64,000 bases of DNA from Paraburkholderia fungorum. GTDB lineage: Bacteria > Pseudomonadota > Gammaproteobacteria > Burkholderiales > Burkholderiaceae. The notes beneath the pieces were generated by a model that saw only the letters and a list, made by a program, of their open reading frames with translations, did no database searches and was not told the DNA's origin. Below, in pieces: positions 6,089-44,900 of this stretch. A program made the translations under genes and the position numbers. The number at the start of each line of letters is the position of its first letter. Within the stretch, counting starts at the first letter, position 1. Where the stretch lies: NCBI RefSeq assembly GCF_900099835.1, contig NZ_FNKP01000002.1, positions 1,674,001-1,738,000 on the forward strand, in the 5' to 3' direction.

Positions 6089-6118
6089 CGCAGAAGATTG
6101 ACGGAGCGCCTTTCTGCG
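6089..6118 (-). terminator. Stem-loop after the kinase/regulator operon
   Basis: A seven-base stem (CGCAGAA at 6089-6095, TTCTGCG at 6112-6118) lies just downstream of the FixJ-type regulator stop at 6134. On the minus strand no clear U-tract follows, so a terminator role is tentative. Confidence 0.3.
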
Positions 6119-6133
6119 GGAACAGCGAGGAAG

Positions 6134-27507: not shown

Positions 27508-28725
27508 ATGGCCATTTCCGAAGACCGTAGCGCCGCCGAACCCGACACGTCCAGTGACGTCTCTGGAGTCGAACTCTCACTGGTGCGCGACGACCTCGCG
27601 TTTCGCTTCCAGCGCAAGCTTGGACTGATTCCTGCAAAAGGGATGGGGACGGCCCGTCGCGCCGTCATCTTCGCTGCGATCACCTGGCTACCACTCGTGA
27701 TATGGGCCGTCGCCACCGGTCGAGGCAACTCGATCGACGGCGCGGACACTCTGTTCGGTCATTTCGGCATTCACGTGCGCTGTCTCGTGGCGATTCCGTT
27801 ATTCATCTTCGCAGAAGACGTAGCGCAGAAATCCGTGCCGCCGTTGCTGCGTTACTTCGTGCAGTCGGGTCTCGTACCAACGGAGAAGATTCCGCTATAC
27901 CGGGCCTTGATTGCCAGCGTGATCAAGCTCAGGAACGGTGTTCTCCCGTGGGTGCTCATTATCGGCGCAGTGATTGCATGGTCCAGCGCGGGCGCTGTCT
28001 TCCGGCAATTCGAGGACATATCGTGGGCGACTGCCGGTGGCGAAGGCGGCGCGGAGATGACTTTCGGCGGCTGGTGGTTCGTGCTGGTAATCCGGCCGAT
28101 TTTCACCGCGCTTCTGCTCGCCTGGTTATGGCGCGCGTGCCTCGTCTGCGTGCTCACTTTCAGACTCGCGCGCTTTCCGTTGGCGCTGGTGCCCACGCAC
28201 CCGGATCGCGTGGGCGGCCTCGGCTTTTTCGAGCGCATCATGTTCGTCTTCAGCCCGGTCGCGTTTGCTGTCTCCGCAGTCACAGCCGCGTCGTTCGCGC
28301 ACGAAGTCGTGTATCACGACGTGCAGGTAATGGCGATCAAAGGCGCCCTGGTGGCTAGCGCGGTATTGGTCACGATCGTTTTTCTTCTGCCGATGGTGCC
28401 GCTTGCGCTAGTGTTGGGAAGCACGAGGCGCAAGGCAATGATGGACTACGGCAGCCTCGTGGGACACCACGGCAGGCTGGTGCATCGACGTTGGGTGCAA
28501 GGTGAAGAGATCGGCTCGCCCGCTATTCTTGACGCGGCCGAACTGGGCCCCGTTGCCGATGTGCAGACCATCTATGCGGCGGTCCAGAATATGCGCTCAT
28601 TTCCGATTGGCAAGCGCGGCATCGTTGCTATCGCCGTTCCGGCTGTCTTGCCCATGTTATTTGTTGCAGGCATGCAGTTGCCGATGCAAGGCCTCGTATT
28701 GAAGGTTCTCAAGACGCTGATTTAA
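27508..28725 (+). CDS. Uncharacterised polytopic membrane protein
   Basis: A 405-residue protein I do not recognise by name. After about 50 polar residues it has around six membrane helices: AVIFAAITWLPLVIWAV, CLVAIPLFIFAEDVA, GVLPWVLIIGAVIAW, FVLVIRPIFTALLLAWLW, IMFVFSPVAFAVSAV and ALVASAVLVTIVFLLPMVPLALVLG. A cytoplasmic stretch and one more C-terminal helix follow. Charged conserved-looking pieces are LVPTHPDRVGGLGFFE and STRRKAMMDYGSLVGHHGRLVHRRWV. Proteins of this general shape occur widely in Proteobacteria with no known role. It is monocistronic, divergent from the GGDEF/EAL gene and followed by an AT-rich gap. The ATG follows GGAGCAGCAC. Confidence 0.75.
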   Translation: MAISEDRSAAEPDTSSDVSGVELSLVRDDLAFRFQRKLGLIPAKGMGTARRAVIFAAITWLPLVIWAVATGRGNSIDGADTLFGHFGIHVRCLVAIPLFIFAEDVAQKSVPPLLRYFVQSGLVPTEKIPLYRALIASVIKLRNGVLPWVLIIGAVIAWSSAGAVFRQFEDISWATAGGEGGAEMTFGGWWFVLVIRPIFTALLLAWLWRACLVCVLTFRLARFPLALVPTHPDRVGGLGFFERIMFVFSPVAFAVSAVTAASFAHEVVYHDVQVMAIKGALVASAVLVTIVFLLPMVPLALVLGSTRRKAMMDYGSLVGHHGRLVHRRWVQGEEIGSPAILDAAELGPVADVQTIYAAVQNMRSFPIGKRGIVAIAVPAVLPMLFVAGMQLPMQGLVLKVLKTLI

Positions 28726-29054: not shown

Positions 29055-31064
29055 GTGGACATGCGCGACTTCCCTGAATTCGTGTACGAGGACATTAGCA
29101 GGAAAAATTCGGCCCAAATAATGCGCCAGGGCAGAGTATTGCCGCGACACATCATTTTCCTTTTTCTGGTTGCGCTGATATTGAGCGCCTCGCCCGGTGC
29201 TTACGCGCATCCATGGCGGGTGGTTATTTTGCCAGGTGCCGACCCCTCTCTACCGGCGGCCTTCGAACAGATCCAGACTCTTCGTAGCACGCTCTCCGCA
29301 GTTGCGCCCGACGGTGTGGATTTTTATACCGATTCGCTCGACGGCTTGCGCTTCGACAGTGCCGCGCTAATGCCCGACTTCCTTGCCTTGATGAGACGGA
29401 AGTACGAGCACCGGCAGGTCGACATCGTCATTGGACTGGCCGACTTCGCGTTGGAGTTCACGCGCAAATATCACGCGGAAATCTGGCCTGGCGTGCCGGT
29501 CGTGATTTCCAGCATCGATGATCGCCGGCTCGCGGGACTGCCCCCCGACTTCGCGCATGTGCCGATGCGACTCGACATCGACGGTACGCTGGCCATGGCC
29601 GAAAGCCTCCAACCCGATGCGCACCGTCTGGTGGTAGTAGGCGGCGTCAGCGAGTTCGATCGCGACGGCGCGGACCGGGCTGCCGCCGTCGCGGCGCAAC
29701 GCACTAGCCACAAATGGCGGGTCGAAGTCTGGCGAGGTCTGTCGTTGCCCGAACTGCGCCAGCGTCTCGCAACGCTCGACAGGCACAGCGCGGTCCTGTA
29801 CGCAGGCATGTTCCGCGATCGTGAAGGCCGTACTTATTTTCCCTACGAAGTCGTCGGCCCAATGGCCGAGGTGTCCGGCGCACCCATCTATAGCTGGTAT
29901 CCCACGTATCTTCCGTACGGCCTGACGGGCGGGTCCGTTATCAGCTTCAGGAAAAACGGCCAGATCACGGGCGAACTTGCTGCATCGATATTGCTCGGCA
30001 AGCAGGCGGCACCGGGTGCCATGACGTCGATGGGAGCGTCGCATTGCGTCGCGAACGTGACACGGCTGGAAAAACTCGGGCTTCGCGCCGATTCGTTGCC
30101 GCCGGATTGCGAATTGATCGACGTACCGCCGTCGATCTGGCGTCAGTATCGTGGCGCCGTCGTGCTCGCGCTGGCGGTTTTAGCCATGCAGGCCCTGACG
30201 ATTGCTGCACTGCTCTGGCAGCGTCGCGGGCGGCATGTCGCGGAGGATGAGGCCACCCTTCGGCGCGCAGAACTGGCGCGTGCAGCGCGCTTCGCGGCTG
30301 CGGGCGAACTGAGCGCTTCGATTGCCCATGAAGTCGGTCAGCCGCTAGGGGCCATTCTCAGCAACGCGGATGCCGCGAGCATGATGATCGACAAACCCGA
30401 GCCTAATCTCGAGGAATTGCACGCCATCCTGGCCGATGTACGGCGCGACGCGCTGCGCGCCAACGAGGTGGTGCAACGTCTGCGTACCCTGCTGCAAAAA
30501 CAGTCGGTGGCATTCGGTCCGGTAGGTATCGACGATACGGTCGCTGAAACGCTCGCCCTGCTCGGCCCGGAATCGCGGCGCCGCAACGTGACAATCGAAG
30601 CGAGCCTGGACGCGGGCGGGATTCAACTTCAAGGTGACCGGATCCAGTTGCAGCAGGTCCTGCTCAACCTCGCCATCAACGCACTGGACGCGATGCAGGA
30701 GACGCCGCCGTCTGCACGCATCCTGTCGATCTCGACACGTAAGAGCGGCAACGGGCTCGAAATAACCGTGGCCGATCGCGGCCACGGCATTCCGGCGGGA
30801 GAAAAAAAGCGACTGTTCGAGTCGCTCTATACGACCAAGCCGCACGGTATGGGCCTGGGCTTATCCATCGTCAGGACCATCGTCGAGGCCCACCGTGGCC
30901 GCGTCACCGTTGCGGATCGGGACGGCGGGGGCAGCGTCTTCAGGGTGTGGCTGCCGGAGCGCGGCACGCCGGCTCATGCTGCGAACCGCCGGGCCAGCCG
31001 GCATGGCGCCGCCGAGACGAACCTGACCCAGCAGCATCCAACGATACAGGGAGGACGCTTGTGA
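29055..31064 (+). CDS. Membrane histidine kinase with periplasmic binding-protein-like sensor
   Basis: A 669-residue kinase. A signal/anchor helix (about residues 31-50, ending PGAYA) leads into a roughly 310-residue periplasmic domain resembling ABC-type solute-binding proteins (WRVVILPGADPSLPAAFEQ, VDIVIGLADFALEF, YFPYEVVGPMAEVSGAPIYS). A second helix (366-388) follows, then His425 (SIAHEVGQPLGA), N box (LLNLAINALDAM), ADRGHGIP and GMGLGLSIV. It should sense a small periplasmic ligand and phosphorylate the FixJ-type regulator, whose GTG overlaps its stop (31061-31064). Several in-frame starts exist (29055, 29061, 29121); I keep the first. The overlap and a downstream sulfatase cluster suggest a sulfated ligand, but that is speculation. 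Confidence 0.9.
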   Translation: MDMRDFPEFVYEDISRKNSAQIMRQGRVLPRHIIFLFLVALILSASPGAYAHPWRVVILPGADPSLPAAFEQIQTLRSTLSAVAPDGVDFYTDSLDGLRFDSAALMPDFLALMRRKYEHRQVDIVIGLADFALEFTRKYHAEIWPGVPVVISSIDDRRLAGLPPDFAHVPMRLDIDGTLAMAESLQPDAHRLVVVGGVSEFDRDGADRAAAVAAQRTSHKWRVEVWRGLSLPELRQRLATLDRHSAVLYAGMFRDREGRTYFPYEVVGPMAEVSGAPIYSWYPTYLPYGLTGGSVISFRKNGQITGELAASILLGKQAAPGAMTSMGASHCVANVTRLEKLGLRADSLPPDCELIDVPPSIWRQYRGAVVLALAVLAMQALTIAALLWQRRGRHVAEDEATLRRAELARAARFAAAGELSASIAHEVGQPLGAILSNADAASMMIDKPEPNLEELHAILADVRRDALRANEVVQRLRTLLQKQSVAFGPVGIDDTVAETLALLGPESRRRNVTIEASLDAGGIQLQGDRIQLQQVLLNLAINALDAMQETPPSARILSISTRKSGNGLEITVADRGHGIPAGEKKRLFESLYTTKPHGMGLGLSIVRTIVEAHRGRVTVADRDGGGSVFRVWLPERGTPAHAANRRASRHGAAETNLTQQHPTIQGGRL

Positions 31065-31756
31065 GTGACCCTATCGACACCGTCGTTCACGTAGTCGACG
31101 ACGACGAATCCATGCGCACCGCGCTGACCCGACTGCTCACGCAGGCCGGGTATCGGGTAAAGGCTTACTCGTCAGCCGGAGAGTTTCTGGTGGCCGAGCC
31201 CGATGTGCGGTCTGCGTGCCTGATTCTGGACCTCGAGCTTCCCGGCCCCGGCGGCCTCGAATTGCAGCATGCGCTTCATCGGCTGGGACGCGAAATGCCG
31301 ATTGTTTTCATCAGCGCGCATCGTGATATTCCCAGTACCGTGCAAGCGATCAAGGCAGGGGCCCGGGATTTTCTCCTCAAGCCGATCAACACGCAGATGC
31401 TTCTCGCTGCGGTCGAGAGTGCGGTCGCAGTAACGGCTCCAGAGTCGCCCCCGGAAAGCACGGCCGAACCCTTCGCAACGCCCTTGACCGATCGCGAGCG
31501 GGCGGTGCTGCGTGGCGTGGTGACCGGGCGGCTCAACAAACAGATCGCCGCCGAACTGGCATTGAGCGAGCGGACCATCAAGACATGCCGGGCTCACCTG
31601 ATGCACAAGCTGAACGCCCATTCGCTTGCCGAACTCGTGAGGCTGGCCGAGCCGATCTTCCATATCGGTAGGAGCAGGCCCGGTCAGATTGCCCCAACGG
31701 GCAATTTCGTTGCCCCTTCCCCGGATAGCGTAAGCGTCCCGCCGCTCCGATACTGA
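31061..31756 (+). CDS. FixJ/NarL-family response regulator (GTG start)
   Basis: A 231-residue regulator: receiver with VVDDDE (11-16), phospho-acceptor Asp57 in LILDLELPG, and FLLKPI. A LuxR-type helix-turn-helix follows (LTDRERAVLRGVVTGRLNKQIAAELALSERTIKTCRAHLMHKL), then a tail of about 35 residues. The GTG at 31061 sits behind AGGGAGG and overlaps the kinase stop (GTGA), which decides the start. It is the partner of that kinase. The C-terminal coding stretch contains a copy of the 41-base family-two element (31688-31728), which probably explains its unusual sequence tail. I propose it binds family two (31688, 37234, 38330); this is inference from location and element shape. Confidence 0.93.
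   Translation: MSDPIDTVVHVVDDDESMRTALTRLLTQAGYRVKAYSSAGEFLVAEPDVRSACLILDLELPGPGGLELQHALHRLGREMPIVFISAHRDIPSTVQAIKAGARDFLLKPINTQMLLAAVESAVAVTAPESPPESTAEPFATPLTDRERAVLRGVVTGRLNKQIAAELALSERTIKTCRAHLMHKLNAHSLAELVRLAEPIFHIGRSRPGQIAPTGNFVAPSPDSVSVPPLRY
31688..31728 (+). promoter_or_regulatory. Family-two regulatory element, copy 1 (inside the end of the regulator gene)
   Basis: ATTGCCC-CAAC-GGGCAAT (31688-31705) is a perfect seven-base dyad. It is followed by a third half-site TTGCCC (31710-31715) and CCGGATAG at the right end. It matches copy 3 at about 32 of 41 positions. It lies about 135 bases before the sulfatase-maturation gene and points toward it, so a promoter nested in the coding end is likely. 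Confidence 0.65.
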
Positions 31757-31863
31757 TGATCCGTACGAGGCGCTCCCGACGCTAGTCGAGCGGACTCGCC
31801 ATACGTGTATGGCGCGCTTCGTCTTGCCCGTTCCGTCGTTGCAATCCAACTTGCTGGCTGATC

Positions 31864-32850
31864 ATGGTCCATCCCTCACCCGAAGCGACCAACGACAACA
31901 TCGAGCCCAATTCGCCCGCCGCGCCACCGGGTATGGTCCAGATTGGCGGCGACCTGTTTGTCATGGGATCGGATCATCATTACCCGGAGGAAGCGCCGGC
32001 GCACAAGGTGCGCGTGAACGACTTCTGGATAGACCGCCATGCCGTGACGAACGCCGAATTCGGGCGCTTCATCGACGCTACCGGACACATCACGACAGCC
32101 GAGCGCCCCGCTAATCCAGACGACTATCCGGGCGCGCTGCCCGAGTTGCTGCAGCCGTCCTCGGTCGTGTTCGCCCGACCGCCCGGGCGTGTGGATCTGC
32201 GCAATCACTACAACTGGTGGACCTATATGCGCGGCGCCGACTGGCGCCATCCGCGCGGCCCCGCCAGCTCGCTTGACGGGCTCCTCGACCATCCCGTCGT
32301 GCATGTCACTTACGAAGACGCCGAAGCCTACGCAAAGTGGGCCGGCAAGGACCTGCCCACCGAAGCCGAATGGGAGTTCGCCGCGCGCGGCGGTCTCGAC
32401 GACGCCGAGTTTGTCTGGGGCGCCGAATTCACACCCAACGGCCAGCAGATGGCCAACACGTGGCAAGGCGAATTCCCGTGGCAGAACCTTCTTGAAGACG
32501 GCTACGAATGGACCGCGCCGGTCGGCTCTTTTCCGCCGAACGGCTATGGGCTGTACGACATGGCGGGCAACGTGTGGGAGTGGACCAGCGACTGGTATCA
32601 GGACCACGGGAAGATCGTGAAAGCATGCTGCACGCTCGACAATCCGCGCGGCGGAACGCGGGAGGCAAGTGTCGATGCGCGCTCCCCTCAAGTCAGGATT
32701 GCACGCAAGGTGATGAAAGGCGGCTCGTACCTGTGCGCGCCGAATTACTGCAGGCGCTATCGGCCGGCCGCCCGGATGGCGCAACCGGTCGATACATCCA
32801 CCTGCCATGTCGGCTTTCGTTGCGTCGTTCGCGACACGGTTCCCGGTTAA
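31864..32850 (+). CDS. Formylglycine-generating enzyme (sulfatase-modifying factor, SUMF1/FGE)
   Basis: A 328-residue FGE-family protein that oxidises the active-site cysteine of type I sulfatases to formylglycine. Both active-site cysteines of aerobic FGE are visible, Cys291 and Cys296, in KGGSYLCAPNYCRRYRPAAR, four residues apart as in the human enzyme. Family blocks include MVQIGGDLFVMGSD, PVVHVTYEDAEAYAKWAGKDLPTEAEWEFAARGG and GYGLYDMAGNVWEWTSDWY. No signal peptide is seen, so it acts in the cytoplasm, matching the signal-less sulfatase encoded 96 bases downstream, its likely client. The ATG at 31864 has a weak ribosome site; an internal ATG at 31933 is possible. A family-two element lies upstream. 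Confidence 0.94.
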   Translation: MVHPSPEATNDNIEPNSPAAPPGMVQIGGDLFVMGSDHHYPEEAPAHKVRVNDFWIDRHAVTNAEFGRFIDATGHITTAERPANPDDYPGALPELLQPSSVVFARPPGRVDLRNHYNWWTYMRGADWRHPRGPASSLDGLLDHPVVHVTYEDAEAYAKWAGKDLPTEAEWEFAARGGLDDAEFVWGAEFTPNGQQMANTWQGEFPWQNLLEDGYEWTAPVGSFPPNGYGLYDMAGNVWEWTSDWYQDHGKIVKACCTLDNPRGGTREASVDARSPQVRIARKVMKGGSYLCAPNYCRRYRPAARMAQPVDTSTCHVGFRCVVRDTVPG

Positions 32851-32946
32851 GTCCGACAGCCAATACGACCTCTTGCAGACCCGTCGACGACAGGGTCGCG
32901 AGAGTTTCGCTACCGGTTACGGTGGCTCTACGCAAAGGAGTTTTTC

Positions 32947-34458
32947 ATGGCGGCGAAGAAGAAAACCAACTTCCTGATCCTTTGGGGAGACGACATCGGT
33001 CAGTCCAACCTCAGCATCTTCAGCAAGGGCGTGATGGGATACCGCACGCCCAATATCGACAGCATCGGCGAGGACGGCATGGTGTTCACCGACTATTACG
33101 GCGAACAGAGTTGCACGGCCGGTCGCGCGTCGTTCATCACGGGACAATGCGGATTGCGCACGGGACTGACCAAGGTCGGCCTGCCTGGCGCGCCGCTCGG
33201 CATGAGCGCCGAAGATCCGAACATTCCCGAGTTGCTCAAGGGTCTCGGGTACAGCACGGGCCAGTTCGGCAAGAACCACTTCGGCGATCGCGACGAGCAT
33301 CTGCCGACCGTGCACGGCTTCGACGAATTCTTCGGCAATCTCTATCACCTGAATGCCGAGGAAGAGCCTGAATTGCCCGATTATCCCGATCCCAAAGAGT
33401 TTCCCGACTTTCACAAGAAGTACGGCCCGCGCGGCGTGCTGCACTGCTGGTCGGACGGCAAGGGCGGCCAGAAAATCGACAATACCGGTCCGCTCACGCG
33501 CGAGCGGATGAAAACGGTCGACACCGAGTTTCTCGCGGCCGCCAAGGAATTCATCCAGAAGGCGCACAAGGAAGACAAGCCGTTCTTCGTCTGGTTCAAC
33601 ACCTCGCATATGCATTTCCGCACGCATATCGAGGACCGGATTCGCGGTCAGGCGGGACGCTGGCAGTCGGAGTATCACGACTGCATGATCGAACACGACA
33701 AGCATATCGGCGAGATGCTCGCGCTACTCGACGAACTCGGCATAGCAGACGACACGATGGTCATGTACAGCACCGACAACGGTCCGCACATGAACTCGTG
33801 GCCCGATGCCGGTATGACACCGTTCCGCAACGAGAAGAACTCGAACTGGGAAGGCGCATACCGCGTGCCCTGTCTGGTTCGCTGGCCGGGCGTGATCAAG
33901 CCGGGCACGGTGTGCAACGAGATCGTCAGTCACCTCGACTGGCTGCCGACCATCGTCGACGCGGCGGGCGACCCCGACGTCAAGGACAAACTGACGAAGG
34001 GCTTCGAGGCCAATGGCAAGACCTTCAAGGTGCATCTGGACGGCTTCAGTCTGATGCCCTACTTCACCGGTAAGGCGAAGAAACCTGAACGTAAGGGCTT
34101 CTTCTATTTCACCGACGACGGCGACCTCGCCTGTCTGCGCTTCGACAACTGGAAAGTCGTGTTCATGGAACAGCGCACGGCAGGCACGTTGCGAATCTGG
34201 GCGGAGCCACTGGTCACGTTGCGCGTGCCGAAAATCTTCAACCTGCGCACGGACCCCTATGAGCGGGCGGATATAACGTCCAACACCTATTACGACTGGC
34301 TGCTCGACCACACCTTCATCCTTGTGCCGGCGCAGGCTGGCGTGGGCGAATTTTTGCAGACGTTCAAAGCCTTCCCGCCAAGGCAGAAAGCGGCCAGCTT
34401 CGGCGTGGATCAGGTGATCGACAAGATGACCGACGCCGCCGGCGGTGGTCATCGCTGA
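32947..34458 (+). CDS. Type I sulfatase, formylglycine-dependent, no export signal
   Basis: A 503-residue sulfatase that hydrolyses a sulfate ester. The metal-binding pair is Asp15-Asp16 (LWGDDIG), the cysteine to be converted is Cys56 in SCTAGRASFITG (Ala where most sulfatases have Pro), Lys109 and His111 lie in GKNHFGD, and Asp277-Asn278 in STDNGPH. There is no signal peptide, so it is probably cytoplasmic like Pseudomonas AtsA. The ATG follows AAAGGAG. The FGE that should activate it is the gene before. Downstream come a BASS transporter and DUF202, suggesting uptake of a sulfated organic anion followed by desulfation. The substrate (aryl, choline or other sulfate) is not decided by sequence. 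Confidence 0.93.
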   Translation: MAAKKKTNFLILWGDDIGQSNLSIFSKGVMGYRTPNIDSIGEDGMVFTDYYGEQSCTAGRASFITGQCGLRTGLTKVGLPGAPLGMSAEDPNIPELLKGLGYSTGQFGKNHFGDRDEHLPTVHGFDEFFGNLYHLNAEEEPELPDYPDPKEFPDFHKKYGPRGVLHCWSDGKGGQKIDNTGPLTRERMKTVDTEFLAAAKEFIQKAHKEDKPFFVWFNTSHMHFRTHIEDRIRGQAGRWQSEYHDCMIEHDKHIGEMLALLDELGIADDTMVMYSTDNGPHMNSWPDAGMTPFRNEKNSNWEGAYRVPCLVRWPGVIKPGTVCNEIVSHLDWLPTIVDAAGDPDVKDKLTKGFEANGKTFKVHLDGFSLMPYFTGKAKKPERKGFFYFTDDGDLACLRFDNWKVVFMEQRTAGTLRIWAEPLVTLRVPKIFNLRTDPYERADITSNTYYDWLLDHTFILVPAQAGVGEFLQTFKAFPPRQKAASFGVDQVIDKMTDAAGGGHR

Positions 34459-34552
34459 TTGCTCCTTCGTGCTCATTGCGCACGGCCTGGCTCGGGTGGC
34501 GTCGTTGCTAATGTCCCCCGAGTCCGTTCTTCCCCGGACACCAGGATAGGCC

Positions 34553-35416
34553 ATGGACGCCAAGGCCCTGATTCTCCTCGCGCTCAAGATCGCGATCGCA
34601 GGGACGGTGTTGACCTACGGCCTTCAGGCTAAACGCGACGATATGCTGTATATCGTCCATCGGCCCGGCCTGCTTCTACGCTCGCTCATCGCGATGCTGG
34701 TGCTCATGCCGCTGCTAGTGGGCGTGTGCGTCTATTTTCTGGATCTGCGGCTGCCGACAGCCGTCGTGCTCACGGCGCTCGCCATTTCGCCCGTGCCGCC
34801 GATGCTACCCAAAAAGCAGGAGAAAGCGGGCGGCATCGCACCCTATAGCCTCGGCCTGCTCGTCGTGCTCGCGCTGGTGTCGATCGTCACGGTGCCGCTT
34901 ACGCTCGTGCTCCTCGACTGGCTTTTCGCGCTGCCACAGGGCGTCGGACCGGTCGCGATCATGGCAATCGTCCTGAAGATGATCATCTCGCCGCTCGCGC
35001 TCGGGCTCGTCGTCGCGAAGCTGATGCCAGGTATCGCCGCGAGCGTGAGCCGGCCCATCCACCGCTTCGCCACCGTGCTGCTGCTCGCGGCGTCGCTCGT
35101 CCTGCTCGCGACGACGTGGCACGCGATCTGGCTGACCACCAGCCTGTGGACCGTGGTGTCCATCGCGGCGTTCGTGGTGGTCGGTCTTGCCGTCGGTCAC
35201 TGGCTCGGCGGTCCGGCGCCGGAGCATGCGTCGGTGCTGGCGCTGTCGACCGCTTCGCGCCATCCCGCCATTGCGCTGGCCATCTCGACGGCCAGCTACC
35301 CTGGCGAGCAGTTTGCGCCCACGCTCGCGCTTTATCTTCTGCTGTGTACCGTGCTGGTCATTCCTTACGTGAGATGGCAACGCCGCCGTTCGGCCCTCCT
35401 CTCCGGCTCGCCATGA
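34553..35416 (+). CDS. BASS-type (bile acid:sodium symporter family) transporter
   Basis: A 287-residue membrane protein with about nine helices. The first lies at residues 5-22; CVYFLDLRLPTAVVLTALAISPVPPMLPKK and the late motif VLALSTASRHPAIALAISTASYPG match the core of bile acid/Na+ symporter family proteins. It would move an organic anion with sodium. The ATG follows AGGATAGG. It lies 94 bases after the sulfatase and 10 bases before DUF202, so it is probably in the same operon. I infer import of the sulfated substrate or handling of a product. This fits the neighbourhood but has no direct support. Confidence 0.8.
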   Translation: MDAKALILLALKIAIAGTVLTYGLQAKRDDMLYIVHRPGLLLRSLIAMLVLMPLLVGVCVYFLDLRLPTAVVLTALAISPVPPMLPKKQEKAGGIAPYSLGLLVVLALVSIVTVPLTLVLLDWLFALPQGVGPVAIMAIVLKMIISPLALGLVVAKLMPGIAASVSRPIHRFATVLLLAASLVLLATTWHAIWLTTSLWTVVSIAAFVVVGLAVGHWLGGPAPEHASVLALSTASRHPAIALAISTASYPGEQFAPTLALYLLLCTVLVIPYVRWQRRRSALLSGSP

Positions 35417-35426
35417 AGGAGACGAC

Positions 35427-35888
35427 ATGACATTGCCTGGCGGCCGCGATCCTGCGGCGATACCGAGCACCGATGCCGCCGCAGTCGTGAAGCCCGACGA
35501 GGGCACGCTGCAAACGCGGGCGAGAACCTCGCTGGCGGTCGAGCGCACTTTTCTCGCCGTCGAACGCACACTGATGGCATGGCTTCGCACATCGCTGTCG
35601 ATGATCAGCTTCGGCTTCACGCTGGCGAAATTCTTCGAATACCTGGTGCATGAGAACGGCGCGCCCATCGTCGGCCGATTTGGTGGAACCTGGTCGCCGC
35701 GCATGGTGGGCACGGCGATGGTCGTAATCGGTACCGTGGCCCTGCTTGCCGCCGTCGTTCAGCACGCGCGCCGGGTCAGCGCGTTACGTCGCGAGGGGCT
35801 CGTGCCGCAATGGAACCTCGCTTTCTGGATCGCCATCGCCGTGTCGGCTCTCGGCACGTTCGCGCTGGTCTCTATCGTGCTCGACTGA
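35427..35888 (+). CDS. DUF202 (YidH-like) small membrane protein
   Basis: A 153-residue protein with a polar N-terminus and three membrane helices: the DUF202 signature AVERTLMAWLRTSLSMISFGFTLAKFFEYL, then MVGTAMVVIGTVALLAAVVQHA, then AFWIAIAVSALGTFALVSIVLD. It resembles E. coli YidH, whose gene is near a sulfatase-like gene in enterobacteria; its biochemical role is unknown. The ATG follows AAGGAGACGAC. It is last in the FGE-sulfatase-BASS-DUF202 series, and the outer membrane barrel gene is convergent downstream. Confidence 0.85.
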   Translation: MTLPGGRDPAAIPSTDAAAVVKPDEGTLQTRARTSLAVERTFLAVERTLMAWLRTSLSMISFGFTLAKFFEYLVHENGAPIVGRFGGTWSPRMVGTAMVVIGTVALLAAVVQHARRVSALRREGLVPQWNLAFWIAIAVSALGTFALVSIVLD

Positions 35889-36022
35889 AGGCGGCAACGT
35901 ACGGCCGCGAAAGCGAAATGCACATGCGCTTGCTGCGAGTACGCGCGGCGGGTGTATGAGGCAACCACGCCCGACTCGCAGCGTCGTTTGGTACGGTCCT
36001 TTGCGAATAGACTATTTCGCGC

Positions 36023-37099
36023 CTAGAAGCTGAGCGCCAGCCCCAGCGATGCACCCGTCACGTCCTTGCCGAACGCATAACGCGCGACGATTCGAAAGCG
36101 CGAGAAGAGCTTCGTCACAGCGCCCGTATCGATTTCAAGACCCGCGCCCAGCGACGTGAGCTGATTGAAACCGAGGATATTCGCCTGACTGCCGAGGTAG
36201 GTGGAATGGGACAGCTCGAGCACGTAACGCAGTGGCCGATGCAATGCGAGCAAGCCGGTCGGCGCGCGCCAGCGTGCATAAAGATTGGTGGACTGCGCGC
36301 TGGCCGAGCCCCGCACCGCACTGGAAGAGCCAAAGCTTTGCAGATAAATGTTCGTGTAGCGCAGTTCCAGATCGAACTCATAAGGCTCCTGGCGAGGGTA
36401 CCAGCCGAGCATCAGCGAGCCGCCAAGGCCATACGCACTGAGGGAACCGTTGCGGATGAAGTCGATGTTGCTGTCCGTCTTGTGGTTGATCAGGAATTGC
36501 GCGGCGCTCGCATCGCTCAACACCTCGCCCAACGAAAAATTGAAGATCGGCCGGATGACCAGATCCTTCTTTTCGTTCAGCGGAAAGTCCCAGCCGATTC
36601 CGCCCGTCGCTGCCACGTTTGTCCAGCGTGTAGGCAGCGCGCGCTGCTCCTGCCCGTTCGAGGTGACAAACGTCGGATCGTAACGAGACCCGCCGAGCGC
36701 GCCTTCCAGGTACAGCGGAAAGCTCTGGCTCAGCGTAAAGCCGCCGCCGAACTGGGTCATGTTCAACGAGGGGTTGCCGGTCGAACCATTGCGAATGCCC
36801 AGCGTACTCGCCGACAGATCGGGCGTGACTGAGAAAGACAGTAGCGCGAGCACGGCGTTCGCGCGACGTTGCACGTCCGGCCCGGTAAAAGTCGACGCGC
36901 TTTGTGCCACGGCACTGCCAGGAACGAGCCATTGAGCGCTCGCCAAAAGCAATCCTTGAACGAGAAGCCGGATGCACCGGTGGCGAGCACGTCGATGGCA
37001 ATCGATGGTCGCGATTTGCGAACCGGTGTCAGGCGCTGTGCCGCTTTGCGACACGAATCGCACGACGGCGCGGAGGATGGAATGCCGGCTCAGCTGCAT
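36023..37099 (-). CDS. Outer membrane beta-barrel protein (solitary autotransporter-barrel-like)
   Basis: A 358-residue protein with a long basic leader and a hydrophobic stretch ending SAVAQS (about residues 46-66), then alternating beta-strands with aromatic ends, finishing on Phe (GASLGLALSF). The strand pattern (FTLSQSFPLYLEGALGGSRYDP, YEFDLELRYTNIYLQSF, RFRIVARYAFGKDVTGASLG) resembles solitary autotransporter-type barrels without a passenger. No enzyme motif is visible. It may be a channel for a substrate handled by the neighbouring sulfatase operon. The start codon (37099) lacks a clear ribosome site. A family-two element, pointing toward this gene, lies 135 bases upstream (37234-37274). 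Confidence 0.75.
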   Translation of the reverse strand: MQLSRHSILRAVVRFVSQSGTAPDTGSQIATIDCHRRARHRCIRLLVQGLLLASAQWLVPGSAVAQSASTFTGPDVQRRANAVLALLSFSVTPDLSASTLGIRNGSTGNPSLNMTQFGGGFTLSQSFPLYLEGALGGSRYDPTFVTSNGQEQRALPTRWTNVAATGGIGWDFPLNEKKDLVIRPIFNFSLGEVLSDASAAQFLINHKTDSNIDFIRNGSLSAYGLGGSLMLGWYPRQEPYEFDLELRYTNIYLQSFGSSSAVRGSASAQSTNLYARWRAPTGLLALHRPLRYVLELSHSTYLGSQANILGFNQLTSLGAGLEIDTGAVTKLFSRFRIVARYAFGKDVTGASLGLALSF

Positions 37100-37465
37100 G
37101 GACGAAACAGACCGCAGTGATCGATTGCGTTAGGCAATATCTTTCCCGGCAGATGGCCTGGATCCAGATGCGCGGACGGCTACGACTTTTTCCAACGAGC
37201 TTTTCGGAGTGTTGTTCATCCACCCGCACGTCACCATAGGTAGTTAGGGCAATCCGGTTGCCCCGTGGGGCAACATCGGATCCAGTCCTTTCCTTTCAGG
37301 GGGATGATCATTTACATTGGTTGCGCGATCGCGCTTTTAAATCGCACCTCTGGTGTCGTGCGTTCCGACCGCTGCCGGTGTAAAACGCGGTAACCGGACC
37401 ACCGCGATGCGAGCCGCCCGCTCGCGCATGGCGCTGCGAGCAACCAGCAACTTATGGGAGGACGC
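37100..37465. other. Divergent intergenic region between barrel and DUF4239 genes
   Basis: A 366-base spacer with no gene seen. It contains the family-two element at 37234-37274, oriented toward the barrel gene. The rightward gene has a strong GGGAGG ribosome site before 37466. Confidence 0.6.
37234..37274 (-). promoter_or_regulatory. Family-two regulatory element, copy 2
   Basis: On the minus strand the dyad GTTGCCCC-AC-GGGGCAAC (37257-37274, eight-base perfect arms) is followed by CGGATTGCCC and CCTATGG. It points toward the barrel gene (start 37099), matching the layout of copies 1 and 3. The dyad centre sits about 26 bases before the -10-like block, as in copy 3, which fits class II activation. 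Confidence 0.65.
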
Positions 37466-38233
37466 ATGCAGCAACTCATAAGACATCCCATCGTCCTGTT
37501 CTTTATTTCGCTCGTGCTGATGTCGGCTGCGGGCTGGATCGGCAGCGCGGTGCTGCGTCCACGCATGCCAATCGGCGATACCTCGCGCGACGACTTCAAA
37601 CTGGTTCAATCCGCGACGTTGACGCTGCTCGCGCTGGTCATCGGTTTCAGCCTCTCCATGGCGGTGAACCGCTACGATCAGCGGAAAAATTATGAAGAGG
37701 AAGAAGCCAACGCCATCGGAACCGAATTCATTCGGGCCGATCTTCTGCCGGCCAGCGCGGCCGCGGCGATTCGCACGGATCTCGCCCGGTATCTCGACTT
37801 GCGAATCCAGTTCTACCAGGCCGAGGACGAACAACGACTCGCGGAGATCAACGCCGCCACGGCGAATCTGCAAGGCAAATTGTGGAACGCGGCGGCCAGC
37901 GGAGCCCTGACCCAGCCGAATCCCGTTTCCGCGCTCGCGGTCGCGGGCATGAACGACGTCATCAACACGCAGGGCTATACGCAGGCTGCGTGGTGGAATC
38001 GCGTCCCGGTGGCCGCGTGGATATTGCTGCTCTCGATAGGCGTGTTCGCCAATATGCTGGTGGGCTATGGCGCGGAAAATTCGAAACACCAGGGACGTCT
38101 TCTGCTAATCATGCCGATCACCGTATCGCTGTCGTTCATGCTGATCGCGGATATAGACAGTCCGCGACACGGCATCATTCGGGTGGTGCCGCAAAACCTG
38201 ATAAGTACGACGTTATCGCTGCCTAAGCCCTGA
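37466..38233 (+). CDS. DUF4239 bestrophin-like membrane protein
   Basis: A 255-residue protein with two N-terminal membrane helices (LFFISLVLMSAAGWIGSAVL and ATLTLLALVIGFSLSMAV), a cytoplasmic helical region rich in charged residues (NYEEEEANAIGTEFIRADLLP onward), and two C-terminal helices (AAWILLLSIGVFANMLVG, LLLIMPITVSLSFMLIADI). This is the DUF4239 layout, sometimes called bestrophin-like; no transport activity is established to my knowledge. The ATG at 37466 follows GGGAGGACGC, and an in-frame ATG four codons earlier is less well placed. It is divergent from the barrel gene and followed by a receiver gene. Confidence 0.8.
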   Translation: MQQLIRHPIVLFFISLVLMSAAGWIGSAVLRPRMPIGDTSRDDFKLVQSATLTLLALVIGFSLSMAVNRYDQRKNYEEEEANAIGTEFIRADLLPASAAAAIRTDLARYLDLRIQFYQAEDEQRLAEINAATANLQGKLWNAAASGALTQPNPVSALAVAGMNDVINTQGYTQAAWWNRVPVAAWILLLSIGVFANMLVGYGAENSKHQGRLLLIMPITVSLSFMLIADIDSPRHGIIRVVPQNLISTTLSLPKP

Positions 38234-38329
38234 TTCCGCGAGGGGCGGTGCTGCTGCCTGTTCACTTGTTGGCCGACCCCGCGCGACAGGTTCCATCAGG
38301 GTGCAGCCAACGCCGGGGACTGGTCGTGG

Positions 38330-38370
38330 TTTGCCCCGAGGGGCAATCGGATTGCCCGATTCCCGGATAG
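38330..38370 (+). promoter_or_regulatory. Family-two regulatory element, copy 3
   Basis: TTGCCCC-GA-GGGGCAA (38331-38346) is a perfect dyad, followed by CGGATTGCCC and CCCGGATAG. It matches copy 1 at about 32 of 41 positions and copy 2 almost throughout its first 28. It ends 48 bases before the receiver gene start at 38419 and points toward it. Confidence 0.65.
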
Positions 38371-38418
38371 CCCCGAAGATTGGCGCACGCGATACTTGAC
38401 GCAAGGATCTTGCGGCCA

Positions 38419-38781
38419 ATGGAAGAAATCAGACACCTGATCGTGATCGTCGAAGATGACGCGGGCATGCGTCGCGCTCTGCAACGCCTGTTGCGCGTAT
38501 CCGGGTTCGACACGCTGCAATTCGACAGTGCTGAGGCTTACGCGCAGTCGAACGAGCCTCGCGTGCCGCATTGCCTCGTACTCGACGTTCAACTGCCCGG
38601 CTTGTCGGGCCCGCAATTCTACGAACAACTCGCTGATCCACGGCCGCCCGCCGTGTTCATCACGTCTCACGACAACCCGGCGACGCGCAGCGCGGTCGCG
38701 ACCGCCGGTTCCCAGGAACTCCTGATCAAGCCGTTCATCGCCAAGGCATTTCTGGATGCTATTGCAAGAGCCGCGCAATGA
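38419..38781 (+). CDS. Stand-alone response regulator receiver protein
   Basis: A 120-residue single receiver domain: acidic VEDDA (11-15), phospho-acceptor Asp56 in LVLDVQLPG, the switch Thr in VFITSHD, and Lys-Pro (LLIKPF). No output domain. It resembles the receiver of the FixJ-type regulator at 31061-31756. A family-two element just upstream suggests that the same regulator activates it, which would make it a feedback phosphate sink or modulator (inferred). I use the ATG at 38419 rather than an upstream TTG at 38380; the ribosome site is weak. The DUF2252 gene follows after 109 bases. Confidence 0.9.
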   Translation: MEEIRHLIVIVEDDAGMRRALQRLLRVSGFDTLQFDSAEAYAQSNEPRVPHCLVLDVQLPGLSGPQFYEQLADPRPPAVFITSHDNPATRSAVATAGSQELLIKPFIAKAFLDAIARAAQ

Positions 38782-38890: not shown

Positions 38891-40303
38891 ATGGCCACAG
38901 TCCAGTCGGTAGCTGAGAGGCAGGCAGCGGGAAAGCAGGCGCGGGAACGTTCGCCACGCTCGAATAACGCGATGATCGGCAATGTAGACCGGGACCCCGT
39001 CCAGTTGTTGCAGGAGAATAGCGAGGGGCGAGTCGTCTCGCTGGTTCCGTTGCGCTATGGCCGCATGTCCGTCTCGCCGTTCACGTTTTATCGCGGCAGC
39101 GCCATCCTCCAGGCTCATGATCTGTCCGGCACGAGCTATTCGGGCATCACGATTCCCGTTTGCGGCGACGCCCATCTGATGAATTTCGGAGGCTTTGCAA
39201 CACCCGAACGGCAACTGGTTTTCGATCTCAACGATTTCGACGAAGTCGCACCCGGCCCGTGGGAATGGGATGTCAAACGGCTCGCGGCCAGTTTTGCGGT
39301 GGCGGGCGAACAGATGGGTGTCGATCGAGGATCGATCAAGGATATCGTCGCGACGGCCATTCACGAGTATCGGGACCGGATGCACAAGTACGCCGAATGC
39401 AGCGCGCTCGAACTCTGGCACGAGATCGTCACGTTTGAACGGATGCTCGAGACTGCCGCCACCAGCGAAGGACGCCAGTTGATCAACCGGGCCATGGAAA
39501 AGGCCGCTGGCCGCACGCACGAGAGCATGTTGGGCAAGATGGCCACCGAGCGCGACGGCCGCTGGACGATTCAGGATGCTCCGCCGGCCCTGTTCCATCC
39601 TGGCGGCCCGAATTCGTTGCTCGGCACCGAGCAGAAATGGACCGACAGCGACGAGTGGAAAGGCGCACTTGCCAGCGCGTTCGATCGCTATCTGCAAACC
39701 ATTTCGCCCGAACGCAGGCAACTGATCGCGCAGTTCGAGCTTCAGGACACCGCGTTCAAGGTCGTCGGCGTCGGCAGTGTCGGCACTTTCTGCCTGGTCA
39801 TGCTGTTTATCGACAGCCATGGCAAGCCGCTTTTCCTGCAGGTGAAAGAGGCTCGACAGTCGGTCGTTGCACGCTATTTCACGAGCGATATCCAGGCGCA
39901 CGAAGGCGAGCGTGTGGTGACCGGTCAGCGCCTGCTGCAAGCCGCGAGCGACTCGTTTCTCGGCTGGACTACGGGTCCGGCGGGTCGCTATTTCTATTTC
40001 CGGCAGTTGCGCGACATGAAAATATCGGCGGAAGTCGAGCGGATGAGCAGCACGATCCTGCAGGGCTATGCCCGCCTGTGCGGCTGGGCGCTGGCTCGCG
40101 CGCATGCCAAGGGCGGCGGCAAGGCCGTGGAAATCGCGGCTTACCTGGGCAGCGGCGGACGGTTCGCCGACTCGCTCACGGATTACGCGCTGGCCTACGC
40201 CGTCCAGAATCTGAAAGACTATGAAACGTTCATTCGGGCATGCCGGAGCGGCAAGCTGGAAGCGCGCAGCGACGAAGACATGGCGGCGGATTTCCGCGTC
40301 TGA
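38891..40303 (+). CDS. DUF2252 family protein
   Basis: A 470-residue soluble protein. DUF2252 proteins have a protein-kinase-like fold of unknown substrate. The visible family core is CGDAHLMNFGGFATPERQLVFDLNDFDEVAPGPWEWDVKRLAASF (about residues 97-141), which contains kinase-like Asp residues (GDAHLMN, FDLNDFD). A second conserved block is GVGSVGTFCLVMLFIDSHGKPLFLQVKEARQS. The ATG at 38891 follows AAAGGAGACCAGC, which decides it over an earlier in-frame start at 38756 overlapping the receiver gene. It is probably co-transcribed with the receiver. Role unknown. Confidence 0.88.
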   Translation: MATVQSVAERQAAGKQARERSPRSNNAMIGNVDRDPVQLLQENSEGRVVSLVPLRYGRMSVSPFTFYRGSAILQAHDLSGTSYSGITIPVCGDAHLMNFGGFATPERQLVFDLNDFDEVAPGPWEWDVKRLAASFAVAGEQMGVDRGSIKDIVATAIHEYRDRMHKYAECSALELWHEIVTFERMLETAATSEGRQLINRAMEKAAGRTHESMLGKMATERDGRWTIQDAPPALFHPGGPNSLLGTEQKWTDSDEWKGALASAFDRYLQTISPERRQLIAQFELQDTAFKVVGVGSVGTFCLVMLFIDSHGKPLFLQVKEARQSVVARYFTSDIQAHEGERVVTGQRLLQAASDSFLGWTTGPAGRYFYFRQLRDMKISAEVERMSSTILQGYARLCGWALARAHAKGGGKAVEIAAYLGSGGRFADSLTDYALAYAVQNLKDYETFIRACRSGKLEARSDEDMAADFRV

Positions 40304-41561: not shown

Positions 41562-41949
41562 TGGCTTGGCGATAAAGATATTTCGGATATCAGAAGATAT
41601 TTATTTTCAGAACGGATTTAAATGCCGGGATAAAAAACAGGCAACATTAACGCCAATAAACAGGCACTAATGTTGCATTGACAGAGGCATTTTTTCCGAC
41701 ATGCCAATTCGTCATCGACCAATCATTGTTGCGTGAAAAAAATAATTCCTGGCGTTGCCCTTTATCCCTATAGAAACACGCCTCCGTTTAACTAAAACTG
41801 ATGTGATCAGCCACTGGGCAGAATGGCCTGAATACAGCGAATGGGTCTGAACCGGCAGACCCCACGACTTGAGGAATCGCGGCTGGCGACGAGGCTGGCG
41901 CAATGTCGTGGCTGTCATGTCCATTCTGCCGTCGAGGATGGGCGATGCC
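41562..41949. other. AT-rich promoter region upstream of the TpsA gene
   Basis: A 388-base spacer of lower GC with no gene. It holds a perfect nine-base dyad, GCAACATTA (41641-41649) and TAATGTTGC (41668-41676). It also has a partial family-two-like proximal block, TTGCCC (41755-41760) with CTATAG seven bases later, but without the upstream dyad. The AT-rich character suits silencing by an H-NS-like protein, which is inference. Confidence 0.5.
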
Positions 41950-44900
41950 ATGAATCACATTTATCGCTTGTGCTGGAGCCGTTCGTTGAGGCAATGGATC
42001 GTCGCATCGGAGCTTGCGCGTCGACGCTCCGGCAACGGCGGGAGCACGGTCCGTCACGGCGTGCGACATGTGATTACCGTCCTCGCGACCTGCGCCCCGT
42101 TCCTGTGGTCCGGTACGGTGTACTCGGCGGGCGGTCCGATTGGCGGCCAGGTCACTGCAGGCAGCGCAACGATCAGCCAGTCGGGCACGAAGACCACCAT
42201 CCAGCAAGGCAGCCCTACCCTCCAGCTAAGCTGGCAGAGTTTCAACGTGGGCGCGGCCCAATCCGTGGATTTCGTTCAGCCCGGACGCAGTTCAATTGCC
42301 GTCAATCGTATTTTGGGCAGTACCCCCAGTCAGATTCTCGGACGCCTGAGCGCTAACGGGCAGGTGTGGCTCATCAATCCGAACGGCGTGCTGTTCGGGC
42401 CGTCGGCGCAAGTGAACGTTGGAGGAATCGTCGCCTCCACGCTCGATCTCGACTCAGGCACGCTCAACAGCAATAACCGGGTGTTTGCGGGTAACGGCAA
42501 AGGCGCGATCGTCAATCAGGGCTCGATTGTCGCGGCCGACGGCGGTTACGTGGCGCTGCTCGGCAATCACGTGTCGAACCAGGGCATCGTCAGCGCGCGG
42601 CTTGGCACGATTGCACTGGCTGGCGGCAGCGCGGCCACGCTCACCTTTGACGGCTCGCAACTCGTTCACATACAGGTGAGCGCCAGCACGCTCGACAATC
42701 TCGCCGAGAACCGCCAGCTTCTGGTGGCCGATGGTGGTCAGGTCATCATGACCGCCGGCGCGAAGGATGCGCTACTCGCCAGCGCGGTGAACAACACCGG
42801 CAAAATCCGCGCGCAGACCGTCGCGGATCATGACGGCAAAATCGTGCTGCTTGGCAGCATGACGGCGGGATCGGTCAACGTCGGCGGCACGCTGGATGCT
42901 AGCGCGCCGAATGGCGGCAACGGCGGGTCGATCGAAACATCGGCGGCGCAATTCAACCTCGCGCCTGACGCGCACATCACGGCGGCGGCGCCGTCAGGAC
43001 GCGCGGGCACCTGGCTGGTCGACCCAACCGATCTGACCATCGACGCCACCGCCGCGAGCCAGATTTCGAGCACGCTGAACGGCGGCACAAACGTGGTCGA
43101 ACAAACCACGGCGTCGGGCGCGACAGGCGCTGGCGTGCAAACGCCGGGCGCGGGCGACATCAACGTCAATTCCGCGATCGGCTGGACCAACGCGTCGGCG
43201 AGCCTCACGCTGCAGGCGCTCAACGCAATCAACGTGAATGCGGCCGTCACCGGCGCGGGCGCGGTGACCATGCAGGCGGGCACCGGTAACCTGACGATCG
43301 CGGCGGGCGCGGCGATCACGGGAGGCGCAGGCGTCACGCTGGCGACGAACGCGAATTTCATCAACAACGCGGGCGCGGCGGCCGTCAGCACAGGCACTTC
43401 GGCAGCATGGCGCATCGACTCGACCGACCCGCGGCTCGACACCCCAGACGGGCTCACACCCTCGTTCATCCAGTACAACGCGACGTCCAGTACGACCCCG
43501 GCAGCCTCCGGCAACGGCTTCCTCTACAGCCTCGCGCCCACCATCACCCTGACCGGCCTAACCGGCAGCGTGACCAAGGTGTACGACGGCGCGCCCACCG
43601 CCAACCTGACCAGCGCGAATCTGCAGACGACCGGGCTCGTCAACGGCGATGTCGTGGCCAGCGCAACGGGCACGTATGCGACCTCCAACGCCGGCACGGA
43701 CATCGTGGTGAGCTCGCCGACGACCTTCGCCGGCGTCGTCATCCATACGTCGACCGGCATCACGGCGTATGGCTACCAGGCGAGAGGCCAGGCGTCGGCC
43801 GACATCGGCACCATCACGCCTGCACCGCTCACTGCGAGCATCGTCAACAATCCGACGACGGTGTACGACGGCACCACTTCGGCGTCGCTCACGGCCAGCA
43901 ACTATAGCTTTACGGGGTTTGTTGCCGGCCAGGGCGCAAGCGTCAATCAGGCCAGTTCGGTTGCCTACGCGAGCGCCGACGCGGGCACCGGTATTGCCGT
44001 CAACGCCGCGTTCACGCCGAGCAATTTCGTCGCCAATAGCGGCACCAATCTGGCCAATTACACGTTGCCCACTGCGGCGACCGGACCCGGCACCATCACG
44101 CCCGCGCCTTTGCTGATCAGCGGGCTCATCGCCAGCAACAAGGTCTATGACGGCACCCGCGCCGCCACGCTCGACTCGACCGGCGCGTCGCTGTTCGGCG
44201 TGATCAGCGGGGACAGCGGACAGGTCGCGCTGCAAACAGGCGGCGCAACGGGCACCTTCGTTTCGCCCAACGTCGGCAACCACATCTCCGTCGTGCCGTC
44301 GGGCTTCACGCTGACGGGTGCCAAAGCAGGCGATTACGAGATTTCGCCACCGGCCTATCTCGCCGCCAACATCACGCCGAAGACCGTCACGATTACCGGT
44401 GTCACCGCCAACGACAAGGTGTATGACGCCACCACCACGGCGACGCTAAACCTGGGCAGCGCCACCGTCTCAGGGCTCGTGCCGTCCGACGCCGGCACTG
44501 TCACGCTCTCGACGCTCGCGGCCACCGGCACGTTCAGTCAGTCCGATGTCGGCAACGCGCTGCCTGTTTCGGCCAACGGCTTCTCTCTGGGCGGCCCGGG
44601 GGCCGGCAATTACACCGTGGCCGGGATCAGCGGCCTCGCCGCGAACATCACGCCGGCACCGCTGACGATCACGTTTGTCGGCTCGCCGACCAAGGTGTAT
44701 GACGGCAGCGCCACTGCCACGCTGACCCAGTCGAACTACACCATCTCGGGTTTCGTGGGCGGACAGAGCGCCGCGATCGGACAAAATTCGGCTTCCTATG
44801 CGACGGCTAACGCAGGCACCGGCATTACTGTCACCGCTGCGCTCAGACCTTCTGATTTCGTGCCCGCCGCTGGCACATCAATGTCGAATTACACGTTTCC

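Follow-up and report, generated by a model that had tools for sequence, protein, structure and literature searches.

A TTGCCC-dyad promoter element, very probably the site of one nearby FixJ-type regulator, defines a small candidate regulon in some Burkholderiaceae

The stretch of DNA studied here (hereafter the window: 64,000 nucleotides of the Paraburkholderia fungorum assembly GCF_900099835.1, contig NZ_FNKP01000002.1) carries on its forward strand the genes of a two-component system, a sensor histidine kinase (29055..31064) and a FixJ-type response regulator (31061..31756). The kinase has a periplasmic domain followed by HisKA (just below the Pfam cut-off) and HATPase_c. No PDB entry gives a useful sequence match to its sensor domain, for which a type-I solute-binding fold is predicted. 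The regulator has the REC + GerE organisation of FixJ/NarL-type proteins (Response_reg 87.1 bits for a cut-off of 30.2, GerE 69 bits for a cut-off of 23.5), with LSERTIKTCRAHLMHK as recognition helix; it scores 181.8 bits with the NCBIfam FixJ equivalog NF006900, below the curated cut-off of 255. The protein encoded at 27508-28725 belongs to no Pfam or NCBIfam family.

Past the regulator, on the same strand, come the genes for an FGE-type sulfatase-modifying enzyme (PF03781; 31864..32850) and for a sulfatase (PF00884; 32947..34458) with the CxAxR-type site C-T-A-G-R, so that the signature of a type I sulfatase (C-x-[P/A]-x-R, here CTAGR) is found together with an FGE-family partner in the preceding gene. 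An SBF-family membrane protein (34553..35416, +; 25.5 bits for a cut-off of 24.3) and a DUF202 membrane protein (35427..35888, +) possibly belong to the same operon. On the opposite strand lies the gene of an outer-membrane protein that is barrel-like by appearance (36023..37099, -) and has no family in Pfam or NCBIfam. Further on, the forward strand encodes a stand-alone receiver protein (38419..38781), in which the acidic pair, Asp, Ser and Lys of receivers can be recognised by eye, a DUF2252 protein (38891..40303) and a large TPS/ESPR/YDG-repeat adhesin-like protein (41869..51516).

Three copies of a TTGCCC/GGGCAA dyad had been reported in this region by the initial annotation, and all three are found at the positions and on the strands given. 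Aligned over 41 bp, they share the consensus TTGCCC-N4-GGGCAA-N5-TTGCCC-N4-YMCCNATRGC. Element 1 (TTGCCC caac GGGCAA tttcg TTGCCC cttc CCCGGATAGC; 31689..31729, +) lies within the 3' end of the regulator ORF and points toward the FGE and sulfatase genes, FGE being the first gene past it; Element 2 (TTGCCC cacg GGGCAA ccgga TTGCCC taac TACCTATGGT; 37233..37273, -) points toward the barrel gene, and Element 3 (TTGCCC cgag GGGCAA tcgga TTGCCC gatt CCCGGATAGC; 38331..38371, +) toward the receiver gene. The third half-site stands at a constant distance (21 bp start-to-start) and is followed by the YMCCNATRGC block and then by a -10-like hexamer at columns 63-68 of the alignment. The ends of the block noted previously vary as NATRGC/T and do not uniformly read GATAG or CTATGG. 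The pattern TTGCCC-N{0,6}-GGGCAA occurs three times in the window for 0.06 expected, and none of 100 shuffles reached three. Operators of NarL-type regulators are 7-2-7 inverted repeats, and such a repeat is present here (TTGCCCC-N2-GGGGCAA in Elements 2 and 3, TTGCCCC-N2-CGGGCAA in Element 1); among 90 distinct sites, the conserved core of the dyad is 6-4-6.

The genome-wide motif search that had been suggested did recover strong copies beyond these three. The pattern TTGCCC-N{3,5}-GGGCAA-N{4,6}-TTGCCC has five matches in the own genome (8.58 Mb) and none in the reversed control. R1, a sequence-only model built from the G000 sites only, gave nine own-genome sites at E<=0.1, eight of them strong. 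With a second model, R2, the matches at E<=1 number 15. They comprise the eight strong sites again (E<1e-9), a half element (E 0.004), one degenerate copy (C4:251734, E 0.01; excluded from both models for a gap longer by one base) and five weak matches at 0.26 or more. When a weight matrix of the 90 distinct sites was run on the window plus five other stretches of the own genome, eight sites scored at least 42, the C4 copy 8.6 and nothing else above 5. The L009 site, inside an FGE gene, was excluded as chance, and L031 was retained because its flanks fit. Matches with up to three mismatches were mostly coding-sequence noise (35 versus 9 in the reversed control), and a search at another motif spacing gave a chance-like result (8 matches versus 4) and was set aside.

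Outside the window, the own genome thus holds five further strong copies, which precede three DUF1254 genes, one alkyl-sulfatase gene and one HAD gene, besides the degenerate copy. The half element (41755..41799, +), reduced to the third half-site, the -35 block and the -10 AAAACT, precedes the large adhesin gene, and in the relative L178 the homologous adhesin gene carries the full element. Target lists differ between genera. The commonest target across sites is the stand-alone receiver, which suggests feedback.

How the element would work as a promoter can be read from the sequences that flank it. The initial annotation had proposed an activator layout in which the GATAG/CTATGG block is the -10 and transcription starts 6-8 bases past the block; such a geometry would put the third half-site between -35 and -10. 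The activator layout stands in outline; the choice of the -10 block is not supported. In the alignment of 70 flank-distinct site clusters, the -10-like sequence is a different hexamer, some 20 bp downstream of the block and 17 bp past a TRGCNN -35, with A in 63/70 clusters at column 64, A in 49/70 at column 66 and T in 48/70 at column 68. Under the strict pattern NANA[AC]T, the hexamer begins at column 63 in 31 clusters and at column 64 in nine (40/70 together), occurs only elsewhere in three, and is missing from the searched range in 27. It is true that A39, T40 and G42 of the block are nearly invariant (89/90, 90/90 and 85/90) and that TATGGT resembles a weak -10; however, column 43, where a -10 needs T, is mostly C (C in 62/90 sites, T in 21/90). 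In addition, the receiver alignment begins 46-49 nt past column 46 in 15 of 20 receiver targets (further on in the other five); in those 15, this would leave a short leader from the newly predicted start. We therefore consider the older geometry quite unlikely: GATAG/TATGG is probably not the -10, and the shared hexamer, enriched at a fixed distance downstream of the proposed activator sites, is predicted to be a sigma-70-like -10. With the -10 there, GATAG would fall on the -35 and the half-sites would span about -72 to -36, an arrangement typical of an activator. The predicted -10 sequences are, from the alignment, GATACT for Element 1 (31749..31754, +; 17-bp spacer from TAGCGT at 31726-31731; start at about 31761) and, by the same reasoning, AACACT for Element 2 (37208..37213, -; start at about 37201) and GATACT for Element 3 (38391..38396, +; start at about 38403, 16 nt before the ATG at 38419). 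Starts are consequently expected some 33 nt past GATAG.

The same geometry bears on the sign of regulation. That the regulator binds the element and acts as a repressor might be argued from the proximal half-site, which abuts the -35, but we think this improbable, since a -10 at columns 63-68 places every half-site at or upstream of -35 and none over -10/+1, and since the -35 is poor, as in activator-dependent promoters.

The identity of the binder is addressed by the distribution of the element. Among 299 genomes of the family, the exact motif is present in 19, that is, in 19 of the 21 with a regulator match of at least 200 bits and in none of the 278 others (Fisher 4e-28); without the source genome the first figure becomes 18/20, and none of eight genomes with a match of 168-191 bits has the motif. 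R1 sites at E<1e-3 occur in 20/20 other close-homologue genomes (including the two without the exact motif) and in one of 21 selected genomes that lack a close regulator homologue. This one, G204, has kept its site. DUF1254 genes occur in 15/21 genomes lacking a close homologue. For a control paralogue, the other FixJ-type regulator of the window (6134-6850), the association is weak: the motif is in 6 of 37 genomes at 200 bits or more (p 0.02) and in 13 of 107 at E<=1e-48 (p 0.003). Part of this co-occurrence is co-inheritance, given that the genomes share ancestry and that a regulator gene is found within 50 kb of 65 of the 93 sites; the other 28, across 11 genomes, are more than 50 kb away or on other contigs.

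Co-occurrence alone cannot name the binder, and the site could belong to another DNA-binding protein travelling with the two-component system. A LysR-family gene, the only other DNA-binding regulator among the Pfam-scanned recurrent families (the scan covered all but FAM 18 and 20-23), is indeed present in 8 of 35 regulator loci. Nevertheless, only the kinase family (31/35) and the merged regulator/receiver family (34/35) are near-universal there, the next families reaching 18/35, and the site follows the recognition helix itself. In 80 named loci, a site is found within 10 kb in 34 of the 35 with the helix signature ERT[IV]K[ST]CRA versus 1 of the 45 without it; 16 of the 35 are apparently among the contigs behind the matrix, and the remaining 19 all have a site as well. 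L260, at 47% overall identity, has both the signature helix and a nearby site; the exceptions are L217, which has the signature but no ungapped site scoring at least 25, and L238 (KHCRA), which has a site. A different binder is thus very unlikely in our opinion, and the earlier proposal of one regulon with the neighbouring regulator as likely binder gains strong support from these sequence comparisons. Finally, rpoN is common in the family and the sigma-54 promoter consensus is TGGCAC-N5-TTGCW. Reading GGGCAA-N5-TTGCCC as a -24/-12 promoter, with GG and GC at the sigma-54 spacing of 12 (a GG-N10-GC core is present in nearly all 90 distinct sites), is nonetheless extremely improbable, because the T position is G in 90/90 sites, the C position reads A and never C, the W (A/T) position is C in 89/90, the upstream TTGCCC is conserved to about the same degree, the regulator has no AAA+ domain by Pfam, and none of the 278 family genomes (of 299) without a close regulator homologue has the exact motif.

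Among solved structures, the best relatives of the regulator family alignment are 1yio, which we take to be StyR, and FixJ (5xso), with the same REC + GerE organisation (E 3.8e-59 and 1.2e-51, respectively). The regulator's own helix reads ERTIKTCRA, compared with K-x-HR in most other FixJ-type regulators seen here. TtrS/TtrR is similar in combining a FixJ-like regulator with a kinase whose sensor is of the periplasmic binding type, but both proteins are far below the corresponding cut-offs (134.7 bits for 290 with the TtrR equivalog NF040749; 107.2 for 750 with the TtrS model, in a match that does not extend over the sensor). Two further parallels concern layout. In PMC5715377, CrbR is a LuxR-family response regulator whose ACTU site, an imperfect inverted repeat, spans -52 to -36 immediately ahead of an RpoD promoter, the position predicted for the proximal site here (-51 to -36); CrbR controls acetate genes of Gammaproteobacteria. 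DevR/DosR promoters, as described in PMC3029386, have close-packed primary and secondary sites bound cooperatively, the start-proximal one overlapping the -35; the organism, signal and targets are different. In the portion of PMC9045368 consulted, TTGCCC appears only within listed RpoD promoters of Cupriavidus, and the open-access texts that our search brought up, as far as they were displayed, contain no description of the element. The kind of system is familiar; as far as we looked, the regulator, the site and the target list appear undescribed.

Taken together, these comparisons make it highly probable that the element acts as the operator/promoter of a single regulon and is recognised by the FixJ-type regulator at 31061-31756. 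What computation shows is the motif with its constant spacing, the -10 signature, the genes targeted, and the joint occurrence of the element with the regulator and with that protein's recognition helix; binding, phosphorylation dependence, activation, feedback and signal are steps that we infer, in the following model. The kinase (29055-31064) would phosphorylate the regulator, which would then bind as a tandem pair of dimers spaced by 21 bp, at a strong site (the dyad TTGCCC-N4-GGGCAA, centre at about -64.5) and at a weaker one (the third TTGCCC with the YMCCNA block, centre at about -43.5) abutting the degenerate -35 (TRGCNN). Once bound, the regulator would bring sigma-70 RNA polymerase to the -10 (columns 63-68), and the regulon would include sulfatases and their FGE activator, alkyl sulfatases, DUF1254/1214 proteins, outer-membrane barrels and the stand-alone receiver, which may feed back on the kinase.

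In sum, a single two-component regulator encoded nearby very probably binds this element and thereby activates a small regulon in some Burkholderiaceae. This turns an inferred motif into a defined regulon, which has a candidate regulator, predicted starts and a composite promoter of rigid layout, 70 bp long, and whose list of targets groups sulfatases with uncharacterised DUF1254/DUF1214 and barrel proteins. It offers a handle on possible two-component control of organosulfate hydrolysis in some members of the family, and the recognition-helix signature predicts the operator across genera. More tentatively, and with doubts that somewhat outweigh our confidence, one may imagine a self-limiting circuit that senses a small and possibly aromatic ligand in the periplasm and responds by switching on genes for sulfate-ester hydrolysis and for the envelope, independently of sulfur starvation, the receiver damping the kinase. 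The gene set concerned would be FGE and arylsulfatases, alkyl sulfatases, DUF1254/1214 proteins, barrels and an adhesin. If such a circuit exists, the pair formed by helix signature and operator would make the regulon readable from sequence across Burkholderiaceae.

The three copies of the TTGCCC-dyad element claimed in the initial annotation do exist, and their coordinates and strands were confirmed (copy 1 at 31689-31729, plus strand; copy 2 at 37233-37273, minus strand; copy 3 at 38331-38371, plus strand). Each reads, in order, TTGCCC, 4 bases, GGGCAA, 5 bases, TTGCCC, 4 bases and YMCCNATRGC. The dyad alone occurs 3 times in the window against 0.06 expected, a number reached by 0 of 100 shuffles. 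The same annotation had proposed a genome-wide motif search, and this search of the organism's own genome (8.58 Mb, 4 contigs) brought up five more strong copies (C2:1772535; C2:1789076, minus strand; C3:489693; C3:491629; C3:709897, minus strand) and a degenerate one with a longer gap (C4:251734). Compared with the ORFs, the eight strong sites have as targets the FGE and sulfatase genes, the barrel, the receiver, three DUF1254/DUF1214 genes, an alkyl-sulfatase-type metallo-beta-lactamase gene and a HAD-family gene. The alkyl-sulfatase target (L050:1793-4321, that is C2:1786292-1788820) is divided among three ORFs and is probably a broken gene; full-length homologues are present in relatives. 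A half element at 41755-41799 (plus strand), consisting of the third half-site, the -35 block and a -10 AAAACT, with the upstream dyad absent, precedes a 3215-aa TPS/YDG adhesin-like gene, and a homologous gene in a relative has the full element (L178:7252).

The pairing of this element with the FixJ-type regulator at 31061-31756, until now an inference, is strongly supported by their distribution. In 299 family genomes we looked both for the exact 27-base motif and for the regulator protein, the latter at E<=1e-48 with the nine best candidates of each genome scored. The motif occurs in 19 genomes (reversed control, 0 across all 299), and all 19 fall within the 21 that have a regulator match of at least 200 bits, the two others being G168 and G245; it is absent from the remaining 278 family genomes, including all 8 with a regulator at 168-191 bits, and from 368 other genomes of the class. 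The association has a Fisher p-value of 4e-28, with the proviso that the genomes are related and the p-value overstates their independence. A sequence-only model, derived from 8 sites in the window's own genome and run on 42 chosen genomes, gave sites at E<1e-3 in all 21 genomes with a close regulator homologue, G168 and G245 included, and, among 21 chosen genomes without one, in 1 (G204) at E<1e-3 and 2 at E<=0.1. As a control, the window's other FixJ-type regulator (6134-6850) was sought in these 299 genomes too: 107 match at E<=1e-48, 13 of them with the motif (p 0.003), and 37 at 200 bits or more, 6 with the motif (p 0.02), a weak association far below 19 of 21. This other regulator adjoins its own stand-alone receiver (5555-6850, minus strand), with homologues in other genomes. 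The G204 site (L189:7530-7572) adjoins a DUF2092-family gene and faces away from it; neither a receiver nor a regulator match was found in that stretch, and the site may be a relict or be served by a diverged regulator.

Could inheritance of a single cluster account for this distribution? Of 93 sites scoring at least 24 in regulator-bearing genomes, 65 lie within 50 kb of a regulator gene; the other 28, found in 11 genomes, are farther away or on other contigs, so that co-inheritance of one cluster does not explain everything. Of 103 scanned sites, 97 are followed by the start of a homologue to one of the 23 query proteins, themselves taken from the same loci, and 6 are not. The main target families are the stand-alone receiver (20), DUF1254 (12), the barrel (10), alkyl sulfatase (9), a family like window 27508-28725 (9), GGDEF (7), a small lipoprotein-like family (7), FGE (6) and arylsulfatases (5). 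DUF1254 genes also occur widely where the regulator is lacking, in 15 of 21 genomes of that kind. The script assigned a receiver target to 18 of 21 genomes; the window's genome was added by eye, since for copy 3 the script picked the next gene instead, and the target scan did not find one in G101 and G133. The 405-aa protein encoded at 27508-28725 has no Pfam or NCBIfam match; its homologues are element targets at 9 sites in other genomes, and no element site was found before the window's copy.

The recognition helix follows the same pattern. Named genomes (Paraburkholderia, Caballeronia, Pandoraea, Cupriavidus and distant phyla) were scanned with a regulator alignment, and the best 80 of 264 relatives gave 80 loci, each the regulator with up to 10 kb per side. 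A site scoring at least 25 is present in 34 of the 35 loci whose best regulator match carries the helix ERT[IV]K[ST]CRA and in 1 of the 45 without it, although one scan pattern included this signature, so that the loci were not chosen independently of it. Sixteen of the 35 lie on contigs whose lengths equal those of contigs that supplied sites to the scoring matrix; the remaining 19 all have a site. In L260 the regulator is just 47% identical overall, yet it keeps the helix, and a site is there too. Two loci break the pattern: L217, with the signature and no ungapped site, and L238, with helix KHCRA and a site nonetheless. In G098 (locus L316) the regulator helix is ERTIKLCRSG, and about 1.4 kb from its gene lies a proximal half only (C1:621184-621233, minus strand: TTGCCCC, CCGGATTGC, GATACT), possibly an intermediate form of the operator.

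Eight genomes have an element at the 3' end of the regulator gene. In six the stop codon lies 7-11 nt before the element and a receiver gene follows; in the window and in G081 the regulator ORF extends into the element or across it. The window's regulator has 231 aa, against 192-222 in 24 other copies, and its ORF passes through copy 1; its tail past the GerE domain probably stems from reading on into promoter DNA. A decayed-looking copy follows the regulator stop codon in L125 (just below 7797, minus strand), a genome with another receiver target nearby.

The initial annotation expected transcription to start 6-8 bases past GATAG. Our alignment of 70 flank-distinct clusters (from 131 contexts) predicts otherwise, placing the -10 at alignment columns 63-68 and GATAG over the -35. 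Beyond the 41-base element, these are the only columns with more than a little information: A stands at column 64 in 63 clusters and at 66 in 49, A or C at 67 in 66, and T at 68 in 48. The strict hexamer NANA[AC]T begins at column 63 in 31 clusters, at 64 in 9 and only at other positions in 3, and is missing from 27 within the range searched. This block can be read as a sigma-70 -10 lying 17 bp downstream of TRGCNN (columns 40-45), in which the T and G of the -35 consensus TTGACA are retained. The predicted -10 boxes are GATACT at 31749-31754 (copy 1), AACACT at 37213-37208 (copy 2) and GATACT at 38391-38396 (copy 3, with a 16-nt leader between predicted start and ATG 38419). Such a -10 would put the dyad centre at about -64.5 and a weaker second dimer site at about -43.5. 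Among 11 divergent pairs within 120 bp, eight have one dyad common to two elements, offset by 26 bp.

The regulator has the ordinary domain architecture of a FixJ/NarL-type protein and scores under the NCBIfam cut-offs for both FixJ and TtrR; its closest solved structures are FixJ and 1yio (StyR). Searches of an open-access library gave no paper that appears to describe the element. The layout proposed here is that described for DevR, whose primary and secondary sites lie side by side and whose proximal site overlaps -35 (PMC3029386), and for CrbR, with an inverted repeat spanning -52 to -36 (PMC5715377).

The periplasmic domain of the kinase (29055-31064) has a predicted type-I binding fold, of good confidence (mean pLDDT 88.6), and comes closest in structure to substrate-binding proteins of the ABC_sub_bind family (E 1e-12, TM-score about 0.7, 18% identity), the top match having been solved with L-Trp. 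With such a domain, the likely signal is a small periplasmic ligand. The phosphorylated regulator would then occupy the two dimer sites and bring in RNA polymerase. Among the targets, the sulfatase, with its CTAGR site and FGE partner, is consistent with type I sulfatases, and the receiver, which by eye keeps the conserved receiver residues with the output domain absent, would suit a phosphate sink or a brake on the kinase.
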